This document shows positions 55,407-59,089 of a DNA stretch of 64,000 nt, in pieces (the first letter of the stretch is position 1; each line of letters opens with the position of its first letter). A model generated the notes under the pieces. That model was not told the origin of the DNA. It searched no databases and saw nothing but the letters and a program-made list of their open reading frames with translations. The translations under genes and the position numbers were made by a program. Source of the stretch: Pyrinomonadaceae bacterium (GTDB taxonomy: Bacteria > Acidobacteriota > Blastocatellia > Pyrinomonadales > Pyrinomonadaceae). The stretch is taken from NCBI GenBank assembly GCA_026129865.1, contig JAHCHG010000001.1, positions 434,001 through 498,000 of the forward strand. The letters run 5' to 3'.

Positions 55407-56339
<933 letters not shown>

Positions 56340-56364
56340 TTTTTAGAGATAACTTATCGCAAAG

Positions 56365-56395
56365 AAGGAAAGTCTTAATTGGGCTTTCCTTTTTT
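56365..56395 (+). terminator. mdh terminator
   Basis: Seen: AAGGAAAG and CTTTCCTT enclosing TCTTAATTGGG, followed by a T-run, about 25 bp after the mdh stop. Confidence 0.85.
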
Positions 56396-56560
56396 ATTGA
56401 AATCACAACCCAAATAATTCTTGAATGCTTTTATGCCCCACATTTTATATTTCATCATGCAGTTTTGTCATATTTTTTCGCTGATTTCGTTTAACTACCT
56501 TTACGGAATCTCAGAATTGGCAGGGAAATCAAAGCAAACAATTAGCTAAGTGAAATTATA

Positions 56561-56589
56561 TTGACTAATAAACAAAGGTAGAGTGATAA
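56561..56589 (+). promoter_or_regulatory. Sigma-70-type promoter upstream of the carboxypeptidase-regulatory-like gene
   Basis: Seen: TTGACT, 17-bp spacer, TGATAA. It stands about 95 bp before the ATG at 56684. Confidence 0.4.
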
Positions 56590-56683
56590 AATGTCTATAT
56601 AAGAATCCGAAATTCAGCTCAATACGAAGTTGTCCCGCTCCGTGCTGGGAGCGAAACGTACTATAAATCATATGGAATATGTG

Positions 56684-57120
56684 ATGAGAAAACAGTTAAT
56701 CCTAAAACCGCTTCTTATATCTTTCTTTATTGTAGGGACAGTTTTGGCTGGCAGCACAATTTCGTTTGGACAGTTTCTCGAGGATTATGGAAACATCGGG
56801 ACGCTCAAAACTTTAAAAGGTCAGGTTAGAGATGCAGCGGACGGTTTGATTACCGGTGCGACAGTTCAGTTTAAGAATTGAGTTCCGAAGAAGAACAATC
56901 CGTCGAAGCCGACGAGAACGGAGTTTTCAGAGTTAAAGAATTGCCAACGGGAGAGTATAAAGTCAAAATTGCGCTTTCAGGATTTAACCCGACAGAATTC
57001 ACGATAAATATTAGCCCGTATGACTCAGCAGCATCGAAAAAGTTCATCATAGTTCGGCTGTCTCCAGGTTGTGCGTCAGGCGGGTCGGTTGAGTTGGAAA
57101 GCAGAATAAAGAAGGAATAA
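56684..57120 (+). pseudogene. Secreted CarboxypepD_reg-like protein, frameshifted
   Basis: Two overlapping frames read as one protein of about 145 codons if one T is added near 56878. Seen: a signal peptide ILKPLLISFFIVGTVLAGS, then LKGQVRDAADGLITGATVQFKN, ending at TGA. In the next frame SSEEEQSVEADENGVFRVKEL and GEYKVKIALSGFNPTEF, which complete the one-beta-sandwich CarboxypepD regulatory-like fold. The run AAGAATTGAG is where the shift occurs. Read error or decay both possible. It lies upstream of the cassette-like region. Confidence 0.6.
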
Positions 57121-57250
57121 AACTCATTTGATAATAATGGGCGCCTCAACAAATCCTTTGGCTCGAGGGCGAATTAGCGAGTTTGTTACCAACAGTTTCG
57201 TTTTTCATACAGTTTTTCGCAGTTGGTTCCGCCTGCGTTCATCTCAGCCG

Positions 57251-58045
57251 TTAGCCGATTCGTGCTAAAATTCGCCATTTGAAATCGAACTGCGAATTTT
57301 CAATGATATGAAAAAGGAAAAATCAATAATCATCCGCCTGCTCTGGACGGGAATAATTTTGCTGAGTGCTTATTATTTATATCGGGCTGTTCGTTATCGC
57401 TTTTTTGTAGAAGGGATCGGAGAAACATTCTGGAATAAGCAGTTTTGGTTTGTTTTCCATTTAATTACCGCCCTTCCTGTTTTGATTTTGGGACCGATTC
57501 AGTTTTCTGAATCGTTTCGCCAGCGTCATATCAACCGGCACCGGCAGTTCGGGAAAATCTATGTCGTCGCAAGTATTTTTGGCGGTTTGTCGGCATTATA
57601 CTTGGGTTTCACGCTTCCTTATCAAGGCTCGATCGTACCGGTCATTATCGGCTCGCTTTTGTGGCTGTTTATGACGACAGGCGCGTGGGTAACGATTAAG
57701 AGAAAGAACGTGCAGGCACACCGCCTTTTTATGATTCGCAGCTATGTGCTGGCGCTGACTTTTATTTCGCTGCGCATTTTGTCGGATATGGTCGAACATC
57801 TGAACATATTATTTTTTATCGAGAATCAAGATGTGAAAGACACGACCTACGAATGGATGAGTTGGGTTTTGCCTTTGCTGGTAACGGAATTGTGGATTAA
57901 CTGGGTACCGCTTTTGAAACAGAAGAAAAAGATTGCATAGTAAAGAACACGGCTAACGAACAAATGGACGCGGACAACGCGGGCAGCGACTTTCCGTTAA
58001 CTTTAGTTGGCTTGGCGGCGGCTTCACCCAACGCCATCCGAGCCG
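57251..58045 (+). mobile_element. Candidate solitary integron-type gene cassette (DUF2306 gene + attC-like site)
   Basis: Seen: the gene at 57308-57940 is bounded on the left by a G|TTAGCC core at 57250-57256 and on the right by an attC-like site starting GGCTAAC at 57951 and ending at a G|TTAAAT core at 58045-58051. In the circular cassette the left TTAGCC and the right GGCTAAC would be exact complements, as expected for an attC. The right core overlaps the holA stop codon. No integrase is in the window. Site-specific capture is inferred, not shown. Confidence 0.5.
57308..57940 (+). CDS. DUF2306 (YozB-like) membrane protein
   Basis: A 210-residue protein with about six hydrophobic segments. 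Seen: FWFVFHLITALPVLILGPIQF with the family's paired glycine-proline, RHINRHRQFGKIYVVASIFGG and QAHRLFMIRSYVLALTFISLRIL. DUF2306 proteins occur in many soil bacteria with unknown function; the conserved histidines might bind a haem. It is the only ORF in the cassette-like region and stands 9 bp before the attC-like site. Confidence 0.82.
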   Translation: MKKEKSIIIRLLWTGIILLSAYYLYRAVRYRFFVEGIGETFWNKQFWFVFHLITALPVLILGPIQFSESFRQRHINRHRQFGKIYVVASIFGGLSALYLGFTLPYQGSIVPVIIGSLLWLFMTTGAWVTIKRKNVQAHRLFMIRSYVLALTFISLRILSDMVEHLNILFFIENQDVKDTTYEWMSWVLPLLVTELWINWVPLLKQKKKIA

Positions 58046-58051
58046 TTAAAT
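57951..58051 (+). other. attC-like recombination site
   Basis: Seen: an R-box GGCTAACG at 57951-57958, a 5-nt unpaired spacer AACAA, an L-box ATGGACG at 57964-57970 with A57968 extrahelical when paired to CGCCAT at 58032-58037, then a 6-nt spacer and the core CGTTAAAT at 58044-58051. The order R-spacer-L...L-spacer-R is the attC architecture, and the length of about 100 nt fits the known range. The middle is poorly folded and not diagnostic. Confidence 0.5.
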
Positions 58052-59089
58052 ACTCAACAATTCATAAACAAGCATTTCGATCTGCAAGCGCGAACCCTTT
58101 TTTCCGCCGCCTCCGCGCGAGGTTTTTATTGCGAGGTCTGTGTCCGCGATGCGTTTTAACAATTGTGTGACCTTGTCTCTATCTGTCCGTCGTGCAGCTG
58201 CGATCATGACGTTATAGGCATCATTCGGCAGCCGAAACTCGTTGCGGATCTCGCCCGGATTTTTGCCTTGTATAACAAGTTCTTTCGCAAGGGCGAGCTG
58301 CCGGTAGTTGTTGGCGATCAAGCCAAGAAGCATTAACGGTTCGGCGCCGTCGTCGAGGATCTTACTTAAAATTTCTATCGTCTTCCGTGCATTTTTTTCC
58401 ATCAGACGGTTCGTCAGTTCGAAATTTTCCATTTCACGAGAGCTTGCGACTAATGAGCTGACGAGATCCTTTGTGACCAACTTATCAGGAAGCGCCGCAA
58501 CCGAAAGTTTGCTGATCTCGTTCGAAAGCCGGCGAAGATTGGATCCGATCAGATCGATCAGAAGAGCGACCGCGGTCGGCTCCGCCTCGGCTCCGTTCTC
58601 CGCGAATTTGCTTTTGACCCACTTGGTCAATTCGGGTTCGACGAGCTCGTTAAATTCGACGACAAAAGCCTTTTCAACCAGTACTTTAGAGATCTTTCGG
58701 CGTTTATCGAATTCGTCAGGAAGCAGAATTAAAACGGATCGATCGGAAGGATTCTCCAGATATCTCACCAAAATCTCTTCATCTTCATCTTTGAGGTTTT
58801 CTTTTTTCCCGGAAGACGAGATCAGAAAATTCGAAACAGTCACGACACGGCGCGCCGCCATCATCGGCAGCTGTTCTGCGTCAGAGACGGCGCGACCGAT
58901 AGAACTTTCGTTCAGCGAATGCTGGACTTCGTTAAATTCGCGAAGCTGCGCGTCTTCGAGTGCGAGATCTGCAATGGTTTTTGCGGCAAGGTCGCGAAGG
59001 AAGGTTTCTTGCCCGATTAGAACATAGACCGGCGAAAATTCGCGGTTCCTCAGCTGATTTCTAAGTTGTTCCCGACCGGCGATCTTCAT
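58046..59089 (-). CDS. holA: DNA polymerase III delta subunit
   Basis: A 347-residue clamp-loader subunit. Seen: the typical start REQLRNQLRNREFSPVYVLIGQETFLRDLAA, AVSDAEQLPMMAARRVVTVSNF, and LGLIANNYRQLALAKELVIQGK, family features of HolA with the degenerate AAA-like N-terminal domain. It opens the beta clamp with the delta' and gamma/tau subunits. LptE is 13 bp upstream on the same strand, the usual neighbour pair. The stop codon overlaps the attC-like core at its end. Confidence 0.9.
   Translation of the reverse strand: MKIAGREQLRNQLRNREFSPVYVLIGQETFLRDLAAKTIADLALEDAQLREFNEVQHSLNESSIGRAVSDAEQLPMMAARRVVTVSNFLISSSGKKENLKDEDEEILVRYLENPSDRSVLILLPDEFDKRRKISKVLVEKAFVVEFNELVEPELTKWVKSKFAENGAEAEPTAVALLIDLIGSNLRRLSNEISKLSVAALPDKLVTKDLVSSLVASSREMENFELTNRLMEKNARKTIEILSKILDDGAEPLMLLGLIANNYRQLALAKELVIQGKNPGEIRNEFRLPNDAYNVMIAAARRTDRDKVTQLLKRIADTDLAIKTSRGGGGKKGSRLQIEMLVYELLSI

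Follow-up and report, generated by a model that had tools for sequence, protein, structure and literature searches.

The locus between mdh and holA in the window (the whole stretch of 64,000 nucleotides analysed here) is best explained, with a probability of about 85%, as what is left of a partly decayed integron, its integrase gene intI lost but attI and two cassettes retained; it would belong to a class of attI sites without intI that recurs in the bacterial family. According to this explanation, intI was probably deleted save for about seven codons, and the space between mdh and holA would still hold a Pc-like promoter, attI and two cassettes. Decay would have affected cassette 1 together with its attC, and the DUF2306 cassette would have kept an intact gene and matched ends. 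The intact IntI of contig C15 of the same genome could in principle still act on the locus in trans.

Cassettes and attC sites at the locus

Cassette 2, or the DUF2306 cassette (57251-58045, plus strand), carries a gene for a DUF2306 membrane protein of 210 amino acids with an intact frame (57308-57940, plus strand; PF10067, 3.3e-28). The preliminary description had seen this gene bracketed by integron-type motifs, and all of them were found when positions were read off the sequence: GTTAGCC (the G|TTAGCC boundary) at 57250-57256, GGCTAAC (R'') at 57951-57957 and GTTAAAT (G|TTAAAT) at 58045-58051. As also described, the right core overlaps the stop codon of holA (TTA, 58046-58048); holA itself (DNA polymerase III delta; 58046-59089, minus strand; PF21694 and PF06144) borders the cassette array on its right with this stop codon. 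The complementarity claimed between the left core and the right GGCTAAC is exact (7/7; chance 1/256 given the fixed GTT/AAC). The left core thus pairs with the R'' in the attC that its cassette carries, as in an integron cassette, and the same exact match is seen at several neighbouring cores of the C15 array. DUF2306 genes occur patchily: counting the source genome, 18 of 119 family genomes have a match, the closest other protein being 47% identical; no relative was found among solved structures.

The preliminary description had also remarked that the 16 nucleotides before the left core resemble the right attC half. This resemblance is real, because these bases end a second, diverged attC. 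A generic finder of short attC sites missed the long attC of this lineage and was dropped in favour of models derived from the C15 array. Model R1 was built from nine C15 sites, and the broader R3 from 21 sites that came from relatives as well as from C15 and C18; the window sites were left out of both, and R3 is a sequence-only model, as no consensus fold emerged. With E-values that are rough for all attC and attI models built here, attC 1 (57143-57256, plus strand) scored 38.3 bits with R1 and 37.1 bits with R3 (E = 8e-9 genome-wide), while attC 2 (57951-58051, plus strand, from R'' GGCTAAC to R' GTTAAAT) scored 28.1 bits with R3 (E = 5.2e-6 genome-wide) and 19.1 bits with R1 (E = 0.11). The absence of any attC model match, which had been named in advance as grounds for giving up the idea of an integron cassette, was therefore not what we observed. 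Over the whole genome, R1 found 20 sites with E up to 1, in four places: 11 on C15, 4 and 3 on C18, and 2 in the window. The 21 matches of R3 with E up to 0.1 all fell in the same four places. We conclude that the locus is an array of two attC sites.

The second site is short (101 nucleotides), and folding its bottom strand, as had been proposed, gave a negative result, the fold being not significant (z = +0.46). Other true attC sites of the genome have bottom-strand folding z values from +0.27 to -2.96, several of them weak, so that folding is a poor discriminator here. An Rfam search of the locus gave no match, and a DNA similarity search with the right attC against its own genome returned only the site itself and chance matches.

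Cassette 1 (56630-57250, plus strand) is decayed. Its CarboxypepD_reg-like gene is split between two frames (56672-56881 and 56875-57120), a frameshift that could stem from an assembly error; the C-terminal part matches PF13620 at 5e-7, which falls just short of the Pfam cut-off. The C15 array also has a related CarboxypepD_reg cassette. No match exists between the first core in the window, GTTGTCC, and the R'' of cassette 1, so the junction between attI and this cassette is placed by the attI model only, with decay invoked for the mismatch. The preliminary description had spoken of a solitary integron cassette. The cassette ending at the holA stop codon stands, but it is not solitary: instead of a single attC and no attI, the locus has two attC, a broken cassette upstream and an attI remnant.

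A platform remnant upstream of cassette 1

That the cassette had been inserted without any integron platform, as initially supposed, proved wrong: a remnant of attI, Pc and the intI start lies at 56449-56635, and C15 bears an intact IntI with an array of 11 attC. Upstream of cassette 1, the sequence can be aligned to the intI-start/promoter/attI region found on C15 and in three relatives. When attI alone was aligned pairwise, the result was no more than suggestive (score 33, compared to a shuffle mean of 21 and maximum of 35), and a multi-genome model of the whole region, R2, was therefore built (183 positions, window not in the training set). Full-length matches were found at just two places in the genome: the C15 integron (120.7 bits) and the window at 56452-56631 (39.7 to 39.9 bits, genome-wide E = 1.9e-9, spanning positions 4 to 183 of the model's 183). 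The next best match had 16 bits (E = 0.036). The attI region is placed at 56452-56635 on the plus strand, with core GTTGTCC and the recombination point G|TT between 56629 and 56630.

Within it, a Pc-like promoter, TTGACT-N18-GATAAA, is predicted at 56561-56590 (plus strand), with the place and spacing seen in the attI modules of relatives. There the motif is TTGACT-N17/18-TATAAA, and 40 of 44 aligned modules have at least 10 of 12 matches to it; the element in the window may accordingly be a functional promoter, to judge by its sequence. On the minus strand, 56449-56471 holds the start of intI: an ATG at 56471-56469 and about seven codons, reading MTKLHDEI before a stop, compared to MSKLLDNV for the genome's own IntI. 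This remnant matches intI starts at 17 of 23 nucleotides (0 of 200 shuffles were as good) and lies at the expected distance from the attI module. Only about 130 bases separate it from the mdh stop codon, and most of the gene is gone, presumably through deletion.

Four tyrosine recombinases were found in the genome. The one on C15 (92109-93062, minus strand, 318 amino acids; TIGR02249, 460 bits for a cut-off of 265) is the integron integrase and the sole IntI match; its gene is followed by the array of cassettes with 11 long, similar attC.

We then considered the neighbourhood of the locus. Mdh and holA are adjacent in the window (55407-59089) and are not adjacent in the relatives whose loci were read; the locus therefore lies at a synteny breakpoint, and there is no empty site for comparison. 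Beside mdh, these relatives have no attC or attI of the types described here, nor was the gene order of the window, lacking integron-type boundaries, observed in any of them.

The locus compared with known integron systems

Arrays lacking an integrase are widespread, and the CALIN is an established category. Three origins have been put forward for such arrays, namely rearrangement, loss of intI and insertion off target (PMC8618304). Models of attC exist for several phyla, including Acidobacteria (PMC8352920), and IntegronFinder 2.0 reports CALINs from two attC upwards, with no detection of attI outside class 1; according to the same paper, an integron typically has a single attI, which lies near the integrase (PMC9024848). 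Outside class 1, attI goes unrecognised, and the origin of integrase-less arrays can therefore seldom be decided. The lineage-specific model used here recognises attI, which makes this origin arguable locus by locus.

The window locus resembles a CALIN in having two attC with cassettes and no intact intI nearby, about seven intI codons being all that is left, and comparable CALINs of two cassettes are known from Xanthomonas genomes (PMC12444791). It differs from them in that it keeps a recognisable attI, a Pc-like promoter and an intI start, which allows a single origin to be argued directly. The C15 locus, with its intact intI, attI and similar attC, is like a sedentary chromosomal integron; the window locus, in contrast, has no functional intI beside its attI, and the attI modules of relatives are often away from intI.

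Modules of attI without intI in the family, and the origin of the locus

Sites of the attC type found in the window and on C15 were present in 56 of 118 family genomes, from 24 of 29 genera. R2 found 61 attI modules in 16 of the 118 genomes, up to 15 per genome and most of them without intI. Among the 28 loci fetched from this search, a clear intI lay within 1.5 kb at only five, and at many of the loci attC followed downstream on the same strand. Of 44 modules studied, 39 were not directly beside intI, one of which (L304:2789) belongs to the array at a locus that has intI. Absence of intI was judged within the fetched flanks (mostly 2.7 to 3 kb), or genome-wide where the IntI searches cover the genome, many of the relatives' genomes being fragmented assemblies. 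The modules without intI are about 155 bp long and head cassette arrays among loci L300-L339 (for example L301:2952-3098, L309:2916-3096 and L319:2979-3118). A trace of the intI start is kept in the window, in L302 and in L325, with a weaker match in L317. The left end of the modules is an imperfect palindrome of the AATTCGGCATAAATTTTTATGCCGAATT type, located between the intI start and the promoter.

The junctions of these modules with their first cassettes were examined next. Were the modules attI sites, each first cassette should start precisely at G|TT, and its left core should pair with the R'' of the attC in that cassette. The core of the first cassette matched the R'' of its own attC at 7/7 in 19 of 33 testable modules; without the five intI-adjacent modules, the unselected figure was 15 of 28. 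In a curated set of modules not beside intI, 17 of 23 matched at all four free positions (permutation mean 2.0, maximum 8 in 20,000); this set was our own choice, five modules having been left out because their first R'' was far away or unclear or their attI had been superseded, and the figure is to be read together with the 15 of 28.

In genus g6, five sets of loci are orthologous between species by their left flanks, with about 72 to 82% identity up to the module. Four of the sets reach far enough to the right for a comparison, and in these only attC repeats match beyond G|TT: flank and module are common, and the cassettes differ. In the fifth set, one contig stops 13 bases past the module. 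A weaker pair from other genera (G018 and G071) had some further similarity on the right side and was not counted. These exact junctions, together with cassette turnover at conserved places, suggest from the sequence that attI platforms lacking an integrase are used in trans. In one relative, G067, a stretch of 148 nucleotides (L310:3072-3219, contig C150) copies the genome's intI-adjacent module (contig C184) without a single difference, beginning with TTCGGC and ending with the G of G|TT. The copy is located precisely at the G|TT of a further attI, suggesting that attI modules can move in a cassette-like way.

Taken together, it appears rather probable that chromosomes in this family carry scattered attI/Pc modules, about 155 bp long and lacking intI, at the same places across species, that these modules capture and express cassettes by means of an integrase encoded elsewhere, that they can move between attI sites as cassettes do, and that the window locus is a decayed member of this class. 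If so, one integrase would serve many landing sites, and the integron of a genome would be distributed rather than confined to a single locus, which can be tested directly. It is in this class of modules that the novelty lies; the window locus alone adds to the known CALIN-type arrays. The literature searched yielded no description of dispersed attI modules that lack intI, which is weak evidence of novelty as most subscription papers were outside it.

The same modules bear on how the window locus came about. It might have been settled by an attI module that was already devoid of intI and arrived as such with its cassettes, rather than losing intI in place: about 35 modules of relatives have no trace of the intI start and begin at the palindrome, and the G067 copy indicates that modules can move. 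We hold this to be unlikely, as the window keeps an intI start remnant that is absent from the clean modules.

Less likely still is an off-target event in which IntI would have put the cassettes into a secondary, attG-like site beside holA where no platform had ever existed. Such secondary attG sites have been reported (Loot 2024, as cited in PMC12901181), and the window locus is similar in having cassettes away from the main array. Many family genomes have only one to three such attC, and in the source genome (G000) the attC models revealed two further clusters, at C18:17563-19241 and C18:163060-166020, with no clear R2 match in front of either; these two may have arisen by off-target insertion. 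The landing site in the window, however, is an attI with a predicted Pc-like promoter and not an unrelated chromosomal sequence, and off-target insertion does not predict a full-length attI/Pc match with an intI start remnant directly upstream. Chance resemblance of the bracketing motifs to integron sites, for which the insignificant fold and the E of 0.11 of attC 2 with R1 alone might be invoked, is ruled out at the sequence level by the attC and attI model matches, since models not trained on the window place two attC and one attI on the same strand and in the right order inside 1.6 kb, the whole genome having only some 20 such attC and two attI. We therefore retain the loss of intI from an integron as the origin of the locus.

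Finally, a non-coding repeat (AGCTATGAAAGAAGCAGTCAAGCG...) was noticed in relatives at L006:5291 and 8205 and at L178:6695 and 7550, with the same start point inside the left part of an attC. In some of the four places more attC sequence follows the repeat, which has the look of a short attC-targeting element.
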